DNA from: a delta proteobacterium MLS_D
GTDB taxonomy: Bacteria > Desulfobacterota > Syntrophia > Syntrophales > UBA2210
Direction of reading: 5' to 3'
DNA: 46,766 nucleotides
Assembly (NCBI GenBank): GCA_002030015.1
Contig: LQBH01000007.1
Span: 1-46,766 of the forward strand
The notes beneath the pieces were generated by a model that saw nothing but the letters and a program-made list of their open reading frames with translations, was not told the origin of the DNA and searched no databases. The translations under genes and the position numbers were made by a program. This document shows positions 1,910 through 6,670 of the stretch, piece by piece (the stretch's first letter is position 1; every line of letters starts with the position of its first letter).

Positions 1910-1959
1910 TTTGCTTTGGGAGCAGGGAGCCGGGGGTTCAAATCCCTCCGCCCCGACCA
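1910..1959 (+). other. Attachment site: 3' fragment of tRNA-Pro(UGG)
   Basis: The segment matches a tRNA from the anticodon stem to the 3' CCA. It has an anticodon loop TTTGGGA with anticodon TGG (Pro), a variable region, a T arm GGGGG-TTCAAAT-CCCTC, then the 3' acceptor strand CGCCCCG, A73 and CCA ending at 1959. The 5' half (D arm and the expected 5' acceptor CGGGGCG) is absent in the bases before it, so this is not a working tRNA gene. Together with the integrase next door it reads as one att repeat of an integrative element. The complete tRNA-Pro and the other end of the element should lie to the left, outside the window. Confidence 0.85.
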
Positions 1960-2200
1960 TCGATAGTGCGGCGTTTTCCCCCTGGGCGGAGGACAAGCCC
2001 TCCGCCCCGACCATTGATAGTGCGGCGTTTTCCCCCTGGGCGGAGGACAAGCCCTCCGCCCCGACCATTGATAGTGCGGAGTTTCCCCCCGGGCGGAGGA
2101 CAAGCCCTCCGCCCCGACCATTGATAGTGCGGAGTTTCCCCCGGGCGGAGGACAAGCCCTCCGCCCCGACCATTGATAGTGCGGAGTTTTCCACGGGGCT
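1944..2200 (+). repeat. Tandem array of tRNA-Pro 3'-end repeats with GC hairpins
   Basis: Five copies of a 52-54-base unit start at 1944, 1998, 2052, 2105 and 2157. The first copy begins inside the tRNA-Pro fragment. Every copy starts with CCCTCCGCCCCGACCA, the last 16 bases of the tRNA including CCA, followed by TTGATAGTGCGG and a C-rich stretch. Between successive copies GGGCGGAGG pairs perfectly with CCTCCGCCC around a six-base loop ACAAGC, so four hairpins each end in the tRNA-like GACCA. The fifth copy degenerates after about 2190. There are no unique spacers, so this is not CRISPR. The arrangement recalls the E. coli tyrT locus, where downstream repeats carry the tRNA 3' end. Whether the array is transcribed is unknown. 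Confidence 0.9.
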
Positions 2201-2289: not shown

Positions 2290-2832
2290 CTACCGCCGGT
2301 ACGGGGAATAATGCCACGGGTAGGGGTGCAGGTAATACGGATGCCAGAAGAAAAATGGTGGAGGCATGTACATCGGATCGTATGATCTAAACGTCTTGCT
2401 TCTTTTCTCCCAGAGATTGAGTTCACGAATGTCGATGAGGGGATAGGTAAAAAGATATTCGCCTACGGGACGTTTTTCTGTGCCGGTGATTATTCCGGCA
2501 ACCGTTATTTCACGACCGCTGCTGTAAATGGCGGGGTCGAGAAATCCTTCGCTGCGGGCGATGAAGCGACCCGCCGATATATCCGGGTTTTCAGGGCGAT
2601 TCTGGAAATCCAGTTCAGCCTGCCTGATGATAATCAGCGTGTCACAGGCTCTCGGAGAGGTCTCGATGATGACACCTCCCCAGATAACGGGCGATCCTTC
2701 GTATGTTTCCGTGTTTTTGAACGCGTCGGAGAAGGCGACTGTTTTATCCGGTTCCACGGTGGTTTCGAAAGGAAACGACGCGCAGGATATGCATAGCAAA
2801 GAAGCGACGATTATTGCGGGGAAAGAAATCAT
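2290..2832 (-). CDS. Slp-family outer-membrane lipoprotein, copy 2 of a tandem pair
   Basis: This 180-residue protein belongs to the Slp family of outer-membrane lipoproteins, named after the E. coli starvation-induced lipoprotein. A hydrophobic signal peptide ends in CISC with Cys17 as the lipidation site. Family signatures follow: WGGVIIETSP, SAGRFIARSEGFLDP, IYSSGREITVAGIITG and VGEYLFTYPLI. The C-terminus is unusual: after about residue 150 it becomes a tail crowded with Pro, Tyr, His, Phe and Trp, ending SPYRR. The ATG directly abuts the stop codon of the upstream Slp gene, so the two are surely co-transcribed and translationally coupled. The molecular function of Slp proteins is not well defined. 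Confidence 0.88.
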   Translation of the reverse strand: MISFPAIIVASLLCISCASFPFETTVEPDKTVAFSDAFKNTETYEGSPVIWGGVIIETSPRACDTLIIIRQAELDFQNRPENPDISAGRFIARSEGFLDPAIYSSGREITVAGIITGTEKRPVGEYLFTYPLIDIRELNLWEKRSKTFRSYDPMYMPPPFFFWHPYYLHPYPWHYSPYRR

Positions 2833-3366
2833 TTAAAATTCTACACCAACAGCGCCGCCTCCCCGGGTACCTCCGCCCAGACCGATGCCGATACCGATAC
2901 CGAAGCGGGGAGAACCGGCGGCTTCATCGATGTCCCAGAGATGATGTTCTATCGCCGTAAGGAGCGGGTAAGTATAGTTGATTTCACCGATCGGGCGGAT
3001 TACCTTGCCGTCCACTCTGCCCGCTACAGTAAGTGCTCTTCCTTTTTCATAGATAGTCGGTTCAAGAAATCCCTGGAATCGGACAAGAAAACGACCCGAC
3101 GAGAGATCAGCACTCATGGGTTTTCCGTTGCGGTCGAGGGGATTTTCGAGCACCTCGATCCACGTTTCTTCTTCTTTCGGTGTTGTTTCGATTATACGGC
3201 CGCCCAACATAACGGTACTGTCCACCATCGCATCAAGGTTTTGCTGAAGGGTTGAAAAGGTGATGGTGCGATCAACCGTTTCCATGGTTCCGGGCGTTAT
3301 AACGGGAACGGCGCAGGCAGCGATGGGAATAAAAAAACATGCAATGATTACGACTCTTACAACCAT
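2833..3366 (-). CDS. Slp-family outer-membrane lipoprotein, copy 1 of a tandem pair
   Basis: This 177-residue protein has a signal peptide with lipobox IAAC (Cys18). The Slp fold signatures are LGGRIIETTP, SSGRFLVRFQGFLEP, IYEKGRALTVAGRV and IGEINYTYPLL. Its C-terminus ends in a glycine-rich tail (GIGIGIGLGGG, then GGGAVGVEF), very unlike the aromatic tail of the copy encoded immediately downstream. The two proteins share the core pattern but are clearly diverged, so the duplication is old. The start has no strong ribosome site, so the exact ATG is a little uncertain. A promoter candidate lies about 95 bases upstream. Confidence 0.88.
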   Translation of the reverse strand: MVVRVVIIACFFIPIAACAVPVITPGTMETVDRTITFSTLQQNLDAMVDSTVMLGGRIIETTPKEEETWIEVLENPLDRNGKPMSADLSSGRFLVRFQGFLEPTIYEKGRALTVAGRVDGKVIRPIGEINYTYPLLTAIEHHLWDIDEAAGSPRFGIGIGIGLGGGTRGGGAVGVEF

Positions 3367-3653: not shown

Positions 3654-6398
3654 CTAGTCAGCGTCAAGAGGACGAACGGCGCCGGCATCGATCAACTTCT
3701 GCAGGTCCTTCCTCAGTTTCTCGATTTCTTCTCCGTATTTCGACCAGTTGCCCTCGCGAATCGAGCGCTGCGCGCTTTCGTAACGGTCGAGTGCCCGGCG
3801 GGCGTGTTCTTGCAGTGTTTGCAGGGGCGCCGTTGTTCCCGGCCGCATAGAACTATCGGGAAGAACCGCTTCCACCGCCGGCATTGCCTCGAGGGGGATG
3901 GTTTCTCCAAAGAGCCGATCCAGGGCCTGGTCAAGTCCGGCTTCCATCACAACTCGGGTTCCGTCAGAGGCCAGCACGCGGCGAAGCTCGGGTAAACGAC
4001 CCTCGACCGCCCGCAGGAACAGGGGCTTGATGTAGAGAACTGAGTTTTCTATGGGAATAACAAGCTGACTTCCCCGAAGAACCCGCGTTCCGGCCTGGTC
4101 CCACAGTGCGAGCTGCTGAGCGATTTCCGCGGTCTGGTCTATACGGGCTTCGATCTGCATAGGCCCGAACACCAGTTCGCCACGGGGAAACCTGAACAGG
4201 AGCAGGGAACCGTAATTATCTCCATCGGAACGACCCGACAACCAGGCAATCATATTGTCCCTGTTCGATGGTGTGAAGGGCATCAACAGAATGAATTCTT
4301 CCCTTTTTTTCTCGGGGAAACGAAGAATCGTGTAATAGCTTTCCATAGTCTGGGCGGAGCCGAAAACACGTTCTTTGGGCAATTCCCAGACATCTTCACG
4401 GTTATAGAACATGACGGGATCGCTCATGTGATAAATTCGAAACATTGATGACTGTACATCGAAAAGATCCTGCGGATAGCGTATCTGTGCGCGCAGTCCT
4501 TCCGGCATTTCCTCAATTGGAAGGAAGAGATCGGGGAATACATCGGCGTAAGCGCGGATCAGAGGATCTTTCTTTTCTCCGATCGTGTAGAAGTGTGTCG
4601 TTCCGTTGTAGGCGTCTATGACGACCTTGACGGAATTGCGAATGTAGTTCACGTTTTGTGCGTACGGGCGCGAATAGGGGTAACGGGACGATGTGGTATA
4701 GGCATCGTAAATCCAGTAGAGACGCCCATCGACGATGGTAATATAGGGATCATGATCGAAAGACAGGAAAGGCGCAAGCAGGCTCACCCGTTCATGAATG
4801 TTTCGATAGTAAAGGAGCTGGCTGTCGGGTAAAATGTAATCGGTAATAAGATAGTTGATGGTACCGAAATTGATTGAGAAGATCAGTCGTCTGAAAAGTG
4901 AGCCCACGGCAACTCCGGTTTTTTCCTGGTACATCGTGAAAACATTACGTTCCCCGTAAGGATAATCGAATTCTTCCGTTCCGGACCGAACCACAACGGG
5001 TTCATTCGTCCGCTCGCCGAAATATATTTCCGGACGGTCAAGATCGAGATCAACGGTTTTTCTCGGAGGAATATCCCGAATAAAGAGCTCCGGAAGACCC
5101 TCCTCGGTAAAGACATTGACGGGGCTGGCCACAAGGCCGTAACCGTGTGTGTAAATAAAGGTTTTGTTGACCCACGTCTGTGAATCGGGGGACAGACGTT
5201 TTTGATCGAGCTCACGGGGCGCCAGCATGATCTGTCGGTAGTCGCCGTCCAGGTTGTATCGGGCGATGTCGATGTCATTGAAATCGTAATAGGGTCGGAT
5301 CGCCTGTATCTGGGTGTATGTTTCAAGCAGTGGACGGGAGTCCCAGAGCGGAATGTTTTCAATTGTCAGGCGATTATTCTTCAGGTCTTCTCGAGTCAGT
5401 GAATAATCGACAGGATAGGGTTTTTCCTCGATTTCGTCGAGACCATAGGCGGATCGTGTCGATTGGATGTGATTGTCCAGGTATGGCCGCTCCCGCTGGA
5501 GTTCGTTGGGATCGACAGAAAACCGTTGCACGAAAGAAGGCAGGAGTCCGCTGAAAATGATAATCGAAACGATCAGGACTCCCAGTCCGGCAAGCGGCTG
5601 TTTCAGCGACCGTTTTATCATGCCCAGAGCAGCCAGCACGATGCCGGCAAAACACACGACGATAAGTCCGTTGTACACGGGAACACGGATTTTTTCGTCA
5701 ACGTAGTTCATGCCGTAAACGACGCCGTCGGCCGAAAAGAGTAATTCATACCGCGCGAGCCAGTAGGTGAACAGCTGGATCGTAAAAAAGACCGCGAGAA
5801 AAAAGATGCCGTGCATCTTGACGGCAGGTGACACCGTGACGTTTTGTGGGGTGAAAATGACCCCTCGGGCGATGACGTAAGCGCCGGTCGTTACGATGAC
5901 GGTAACGAAAAGGACCGCCGTGGTGTAGTTGCGAAGCATTTCGAAAACGGGGAGAGAGAAAAAATAGAATGAAATATCCCGTCCGAAAACAGGGTCGCTC
6001 TGCCCGAAAGGAGACCGGTTAAGATACATGAGTACTTCGAGCCAGTTGGAAGCGGGGTATGAGCTGATCGCCCATGCCATAAACGCAAGAAGCAGGAAGA
6101 GTCCCCATTGCAATGCCCTGACGGGAAGGGAGACCTGGCCCATGTCGATGATCGTGATACGCTGTTGAGTCGATCGATACGCTATATAGAGGTTGATTCC
6201 TCCGAAACCGAGAAAAACGAGGAAGAACAGAATCTGGATGATATATTCGGTGGTGAAGTACGTCCAGAAAACGCTTGAGAAGTTCAGTGAATCAAAAAAA
6301 TAAAAGTTTACAAAGGCCTCGATAATTGTATCGAAAAGGGCCGATATTACAAGCAACAGGGCAAGCCCGATGCCGATGTATTTCATGGGTTTCGACAT
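3654..6398 (-). CDS. UPF0182 (COG1615) family large membrane protein
   Basis: This is a 914-residue protein of the uncharacterised UPF0182 family. The first about 310 residues hold some seven hydrophobic membrane segments, including the N-terminal helix after MSKPMKYIGIG and several in the 50-300 range. The rest is a long, mostly soluble region expected outside the membrane, with typical family stretches such as ERPYLDNHIQSTRSAYGLD, FIYTHGYGLVASPVN and GSQLVIPIENSVLYIKPLF. I chose the ATG at 6398 because GGGAG stands eight bases upstream; the frame is open 31 codons further but those look unlike a protein start. The C-terminus is charged and probably helical. It is monocistronic with its own terminator. 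Function is unknown; length and organisation are normal for the family. Confidence 0.93.
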   Translation of the reverse strand: MSKPMKYIGIGLALLLVISALFDTIIEAFVNFYFFDSLNFSSVFWTYFTTEYIIQILFFLVFLGFGGINLYIAYRSTQQRITIIDMGQVSLPVRALQWGLFLLLAFMAWAISSYPASNWLEVLMYLNRSPFGQSDPVFGRDISFYFFSLPVFEMLRNYTTAVLFVTVIVTTGAYVIARGVIFTPQNVTVSPAVKMHGIFFLAVFFTIQLFTYWLARYELLFSADGVVYGMNYVDEKIRVPVYNGLIVVCFAGIVLAALGMIKRSLKQPLAGLGVLIVSIIIFSGLLPSFVQRFSVDPNELQRERPYLDNHIQSTRSAYGLDEIEEKPYPVDYSLTREDLKNNRLTIENIPLWDSRPLLETYTQIQAIRPYYDFNDIDIARYNLDGDYRQIMLAPRELDQKRLSPDSQTWVNKTFIYTHGYGLVASPVNVFTEEGLPELFIRDIPPRKTVDLDLDRPEIYFGERTNEPVVVRSGTEEFDYPYGERNVFTMYQEKTGVAVGSLFRRLIFSINFGTINYLITDYILPDSQLLYYRNIHERVSLLAPFLSFDHDPYITIVDGRLYWIYDAYTTSSRYPYSRPYAQNVNYIRNSVKVVIDAYNGTTHFYTIGEKKDPLIRAYADVFPDLFLPIEEMPEGLRAQIRYPQDLFDVQSSMFRIYHMSDPVMFYNREDVWELPKERVFGSAQTMESYYTILRFPEKKREEFILLMPFTPSNRDNMIAWLSGRSDGDNYGSLLLFRFPRGELVFGPMQIEARIDQTAEIAQQLALWDQAGTRVLRGSQLVIPIENSVLYIKPLFLRAVEGRLPELRRVLASDGTRVVMEAGLDQALDRLFGETIPLEAMPAVEAVLPDSSMRPGTTAPLQTLQEHARRALDRYESAQRSIREGNWSKYGEEIEKLRKDLQKLIDAGAVRPLDAD

Positions 6399-6670
6399 AA
6401 TATAACTCCCTCGTTTCGCGCGGTATCGCCGCATGGGCGTAAATTTTAGGAATGTAAGTAGGACTATAGGGAAATGAGAAACCCCTGTCAAGATTATCCG
6501 GGTTTCGATGTGTTATTTCAATCTTCGAAAAAAGGAAAAACGAACATAATGTTATGTATACGCGGTTTTTCGAAAAAGATGTTTTTTCGAAAAAATTTTT
6601 CTGAGCTTGAATCGGGAAGGCGATCTGGTGCATACATAAGAAATATTCGCCGAATACAGGGGAGTAAAAA

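Follow-up and report, generated by a model that had tools for sequence, protein, structure and literature searches.

A tandem array in which every unit opens with the 3' end of tRNA-Pro occupies positions 1944-2192 of the window, by which we mean the whole 46,766-nucleotide stretch of DNA that was analysed. We propose, with moderate confidence, that this array is a host-side scar of integration into tRNA-Pro, which was made palindromic and then expanded in tandem.

Results

A tRNA-Pro tail is repeated at a single locus

Tandem Repeats Finder (TRF), applied to the window, reported an array with a period of 54, 4.7 copies and 96% matches. On the + strand, the unit boundaries lie at 1944-1997 (54 bp), 1998-2051 (54 bp), 2052-2104 (53 bp) and 2105-2156 (52 bp), followed by a partial fifth unit at 2157-2192. 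Every copy starts with CCCTCCGCCCCGACCA, which is the last 16 nt of tRNA-Pro(TGG), CCA included. TRF and the unit boundaries agree with the preliminary description, which had counted five units of 52-54 bases (the fifth partial), each opening with this 16-base tail and its CCA. The units share one common spacer and differ by a few SNPs and by the length of a C run. An Rfam search of the array region gave no match.

Could the copy number, or even the whole array, have been made by the assembler? The source is a metagenome assembly of short repeats, and the contigs of relatives end near this place (C17 of genome G002 and C209 of genome G004). However, the copies can be told apart by their SNPs and C-run lengths, and in G002, an independent genome, two contigs show a related unit at this site. 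An assembly artefact is therefore most improbable.

Within the array-bearing genome (G000), the unit is confined to one locus with no dispersed copies, so a dispersed repeat family can be dismissed. Neither 154 further genomes of the order nor viral contigs yielded the array, and the unit is restricted to one genus within the order. Searching the genome itself and its relatives thus turned up no spread over many unrelated loci; such a spread would have counted against the preliminary description. Of 155 genomes of the order, G000 alone has a double tail of the form GCCCCGACCA-N25-55-GCCCCGACCA, and the same pattern has one further match in a sample of 395 genomes of the phylum. The 15-nt hairpin core is present in 4 of the 155 genomes of the order, two of which have it without a tRNA tail: the GGCGGAGGACAAGCC matches in G040 and G148 have no tRNA tail close by and were set aside as chance. 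We also rejected a weak match in G059 (C32), which has no tRNA tail with CCA, and 38 viral-contig stretches, which have no tRNA context and by look are low-complexity or coding repeats. A scan of genome contigs and viral contigs for the exact hairpin pattern gave no match, but its spacing was too strict and missed G002, whose UPF0182 contig belongs to that collection: in the G002 unit three bases separate CAAGCCC from GCCCCGACCA, outside the spacing set for the scan. Records very close to G000 may be absent from the collection as well. Apart from the tRNA-Pro on contig C16, we found no tRNA-tail repeats at the other tRNAs of G000, as judged from 30 of the 39 tRNA matches and their neighbours in those loci. 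The few other words shared there are T-arm words of neighbouring tRNA genes.

Each complete unit contributes to a strong hairpin

Four hairpins are present on the + strand, at 1984-2007 (arms 1984-1992/1999-2007), 2038-2061 (2038-2046/2053-2061), 2091-2114 (2091-2099/2106-2114) and 2143-2166 (2143-2151/2158-2166). They have the layout GGGCGGAGG-ACAAGC-CCTCCGCCC, followed by CGACCA, and form a perfect 9-bp stem in which the 3' arm is the tRNA strand. Positions and folding thus confirm the four perfect hairpins previously described. Each has a predicted energy of about -20.6 kcal/mol, and the centroid fold of the whole region retains all four, though the folding energy of the whole region is only moderately lower than that of shuffled sequence (z -2.3). 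In shuffled sequence, 9 bp of complementarity to the tRNA tail appeared in the 38 nt upstream in 16 of 5000 cases, so the hairpin complement exceeds chance; all four hairpins go back to a single event and do not count as independent. We also considered the idea that the hairpin shields the tRNA from misfolding: the acceptor-stem probability of the tRNA was 0.385 with the array versus 0.31 +/- 0.23 with shuffled 5' strands, a contrast from equilibrium folding that is unusable.

Beyond the array, the first host gene encodes a Slp-family outer membrane lipoprotein (2290-2832, - strand; Pfam Slp, 144 bits) and is convergent with the tRNA direction. It is followed on the same strand by a second Slp-family gene (2833-3366; Pfam Slp, 132 bits) and by a gene for a UPF0182 membrane protein (3654-6491; Pfam UPF0182, 926 bits), which served as the host anchor for locating the locus in relatives. 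Sequence similar to the two adjacent Slp genes (2290-3366) is found at the same place in G004, and not in G002. The end of the first Slp gene also contains a short tandem repeat at 2283-2326, with a period of 21 and 2.2 copies (TRF).

Given this setting, the hairpins might act as a local counterpart of a REP/BIME cluster, terminating or stabilising the transcripts that converge from tRNA-Pro and from Slp-UPF0182. In favour of such a role, convergent genes flank the array both in G000 and in G002, and the hairpins have energies of about -20 kcal/mol. Many other tRNAs of G000 are closely followed by an ordinary terminator made of a hairpin and a T run, whereas in the region behind the tRNA fragment of G002 a terminator-like match was not found. 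Yet none of the array hairpins is followed, on either strand, by the T run expected of an intrinsic terminator, and no terminator-like match was found on the + strand of the array region. Moreover, unlike REP/BIME families, the repeat is not dispersed. Overall, we consider a role at transcript ends rather unlikely.

The array adjoins the right end of a prophage

To the left of the array lies a gene for a 404-aa tyrosine-recombinase integrase (523-1737, - strand; Pfam Arm-DNA-bind_3, 82 bits, and Phage_integrase, 73 bits), which belongs to a prophage with its right end at 1912-1959. That end is a displaced 48-nt 3' fragment of tRNA-Pro(TGG) on the + strand, running from the anticodon loop to CCA. 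It matches positions 27168-27215 of contig C16 of the same genome at 98% (one mismatch), and the similarity ends exactly at CCA. ARAGORN found no intact tRNA-Pro in the window; it placed the intact tRNA-Pro(TGG) at 27139-27215 of C16. The preliminary description, which had the array built from the 3' end of tRNA-Pro, needs correcting here: array copy 1 is the tail of the displaced fragment, and the real gene is on C16.

C16 continues beyond the intact tRNA-Pro with genes for a phage portal, a capsid and a terminase large subunit. Thus, as for an attR, the tRNA 3' fragment adjoins an integrase gene and the intact tRNA stands by phage genes at the other end, on a contig that is not joined to ours. 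Most simply, C16 and the start of the window would be the two ends of one prophage in tRNA-Pro, left as unjoined contigs in the assembly. Between the integrase gene and the fragment, a direct repeat (AAAACGGGGTAC/AAAATGGGGTAC, 1757-1780) is possibly an arm-type site for the integrase, and a GGGGTACAAA pair resembling it is found beyond the intact tRNA-Pro on C16. There the tRNA terminator is present twice behind the gene (L002 1549-1745), with a second GCCCCGACCA between the two terminators, 120 bp behind tRNA-Pro; the paired GGGGTACAAA repeats, similar to those by the window integrase, lie in this same segment. No phages carrying either this integrase or that of G002 (see below) were found in viral contigs.

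On which side of the junction does the array belong? In the usual geometry of tRNA insertions, the DNA beyond the displaced fragment belongs to the host. The displaced fragment contains GAGCCGG, as does the tRNA-Pro of G001 and G003 from the same genus, whereas the intact gene on C16 contains GAGTCGG, as would be expected if the prophage had supplied the 3' half of the intact gene. Because of this geometry, of this sequence difference, and of a related unit in G002 that lies at the same place next to a different integrase and also directly behind an intact tRNA-Pro, we assign the array to host DNA on the right of attR, and not to the mobile element.

A related unit is found in a sister species

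Through UPF0182 we examined relatives of the same genus, G001-G004 among them; the genomes found in this way are uncultured Syntrophales/Syntrophobacterales-type MAGs. In G002, whose UPF0182 protein is 74% identical to that of G000, contig C5 carries an integrase (56% identical to the window integrase), a tRNA-Pro fragment, one related unit and then directly UPF0182. A second contig, C17, carries an intact tRNA-Pro followed by the same unit as C5 and then the contig end. The two contigs have 94 identical terminal bases, and then three SNPs back to the tRNA. The most plausible reading of C17 is an unoccupied site from a strain that was co-assembled, with some doubt left by the contig end. G001 has other DNA beyond UPF0182. 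Further species of the genus yielded no additional array, the contigs of G003 and G004 stopping short of the site. All genomes of the genus are metagenome assemblies, and the unit is carried by two species only.

A 17-nt hairpin core is identical in G000 and G002. Outside this core and the tRNA tail, the spacers of the two species show no significant similarity (425 of 3000 shuffles reached an equally good score). Their GGGCGGAGGACAAGCCC is identical, and the next 4 nt are TCCG in G000 versus AAGG in G002. The AAGG of G002 is the exact complement of a CCTT upstream there and turns a 4-bp hairpin arm into an 8-bp one, which suggests that the stem of G002 was lengthened by one change.

The identical core, together with the unlike spacers, could point to a functional RNA resembling the rtT product of E. 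coli. Before the prophage arrived, the array, as the trailer of the tRNA-Pro transcript, might have been cut into minihelices ending in CGACCA, serving as a regulatory RNA or as a decoy for tRNA-processing enzymes. In E. coli, the tyrT operon shares this architecture and gives an annotated RNA, RttR, from such a repeat, and a secondary source holds that rtT, as a tyrT by-product, might take part in the stringent response (PMC2965389). However, in G000 the prophage separates the array from the tRNA promoter, and no promoter-like site was found on the + strand in 1600-2400. The array is also absent from the rest of the order, and in one screen of E. coli sRNAs the RttR row, at 97% in its first column, was otherwise unchanged (PMC4606813). 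A functional RNA thus seems unlikely to us. A bolder version would have the units mimic tRNA acceptors, the CGACCA minihelices titrating tRNA-processing enzymes or prolyl-tRNA metabolism until prophage entry cuts the RNA off from its promoter; we regard this as highly doubtful.

Other relatives show how elements accumulate at this gene. In G016 the order is tRNA-Pro, a prophage, a fragment starting at the anticodon loop, a second element, and a shorter fragment starting at the T arm; on its contig C160 (L037 1900-17280) the two accreted elements carry a prophage-type integrase and then a different one. Contig C44 of G005 (L038 1164-7846) has an element whose tRNA-Pro fragment is of the T-arm type and whose 389-aa integrase resembles, at its start, that of the second G016 element.

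With tRNA-Pro as an integration hot spot in this bacterial family, the repeated tails might be taken for extra or decoy attB sites for integrases, and multiple short attachment sites had indeed been suggested. However, four genomes (G000, G002, G016 and G025) have displaced fragments that start at the anticodon loop, and for the second G016 element and the element of G005 the start is at the T arm. The 16-nt tails, and the units that they open, contain neither start region, and in neither species did the prophage use an array copy in place of the tRNA. An attachment-site array is accordingly extremely unlikely, and that suggestion finds no support.

A proposed route from integration scar to array

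We therefore return to the scar of integration as our preferred explanation, which would involve five steps. First, repeated integration of elements into tRNA-Pro would leave displaced 3' ends downstream, as is seen in relatives and in this genome. Second, an older element may have been lost, presumably leaving a short spacer between two tRNA tails; the one-unit state proposed for this step still exists in the sister species G002. Third, a template switch during replication may have set an inverted copy of the tail, GGGCGGAGG, beside the tail, and so given rise to the hairpin. Fourth, slippage at this GC-rich, hairpin-forming repeat could have taken one unit to 4.7 copies in the present species; we suggest slippage or tandem duplication because the spacers are nearly identical and the C-run lengths vary. 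Fifth, a later prophage entered tRNA-Pro at the anticodon loop, parting the gene from the scar, so that the array now begins at the prophage attR; this last step can be followed in the contigs except for the unassembled prophage interior.

Support for the scar comes from the accretion of elements seen in G016, and from C16, with its second GCCCCGACCA and its duplicated terminator. The preliminary description had named a scar of repeated integration and excision among its options, and this fits best for the first unit, but the other copies, with their near-identical spacers, are tandem duplications. Several points weigh on the other side. Since only two species have the unit, the order of the second to fourth steps is beyond testing on a tree, and none of the relatives shows the older element that would have been lost to leave the first unit. 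A conserved hairpin core with diverged spacers could also mean selection, and a neutral scar alone does not predict strong hairpins in both species. The whole case for a scar rests on metagenome-assembled genomes. If the array is a scar, we expect no specific function for it; at most, its hairpins would serve passively as 3' structures of transcripts that read through from one side or the other.

Discussion

The array offers a second, independent case of the tyrT/rtT architecture of E. coli, at a different tRNA and in a distant bacterial group. Intermediate states can be seen in relatives, where elements have accreted or a one-unit scar follows an intact tRNA, alongside the expanded array. Integration scar, template-switch palindrome and slippage together would provide a concrete route for the origin of tRNA-tail repeats. 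The finding would matter more if an RNA reading, unlikely as we consider it, were right; were the units acceptor mimics, they would make up an array of tRNA-derived small RNAs with lysogeny as its off switch.

Among known systems, Islander-type displaced tRNA fragments (PMC4383910, PMC9897764) resemble the fragment at 1912-1959, with its adjacent integrase and an intact tRNA at the far end. They come, however, as one fragment per element end, and their description does not include 16-nt copies in tandem with a fixed spacer. Template-switch mutations at quasipalindromes can perfect imperfect palindromes (PMC7202029), and the TCCG/AAGG difference, by which a short inverted repeat becomes longer and perfect, is of this kind, although the event is here deduced from two species only. 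Like REP/BIME elements, the hairpins are GC-rich extragenic palindromes at gene ends, but they occupy one locus instead of many.

The closest parallel is the tyrT locus of E. coli (rtT/RttR, tpr), which also has direct repeats behind a tRNA gene, each with the tRNA 3' end and CCA. As a positive control, the tyrT locus of strain MG1655 gave direct units of 178 bp, together with four occurrences of a 21-nt repeat that includes the tRNA-Tyr 3' end, and the comparison with rtT drawn in the preliminary description holds at the level of architecture, in that tandem direct repeats bear the 3' end of the neighbouring tRNA with its CCA. The 178-bp units follow two tRNA-Tyr genes, whereas those of 52-54 bp described here concern tRNA-Pro, have no Rfam match and are not of the rtT type in length. 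In G000 a prophage stands between the array and the tRNA gene, and only on C17 of G002 does a unit lie directly behind an intact tRNA gene. For the E. coli repeats a transcript is annotated, while any from the present array would be hypothetical. We therefore class the array as a variant that resembles rtT and not as a member of it. At tyrT, no more than 5 nt in a row of the 60 nt upstream are complementary to the tail, compared with 9 here, and what appears new relative to rtT is the combination of far shorter units with a tRNA-strand hairpin that rtT lacks.
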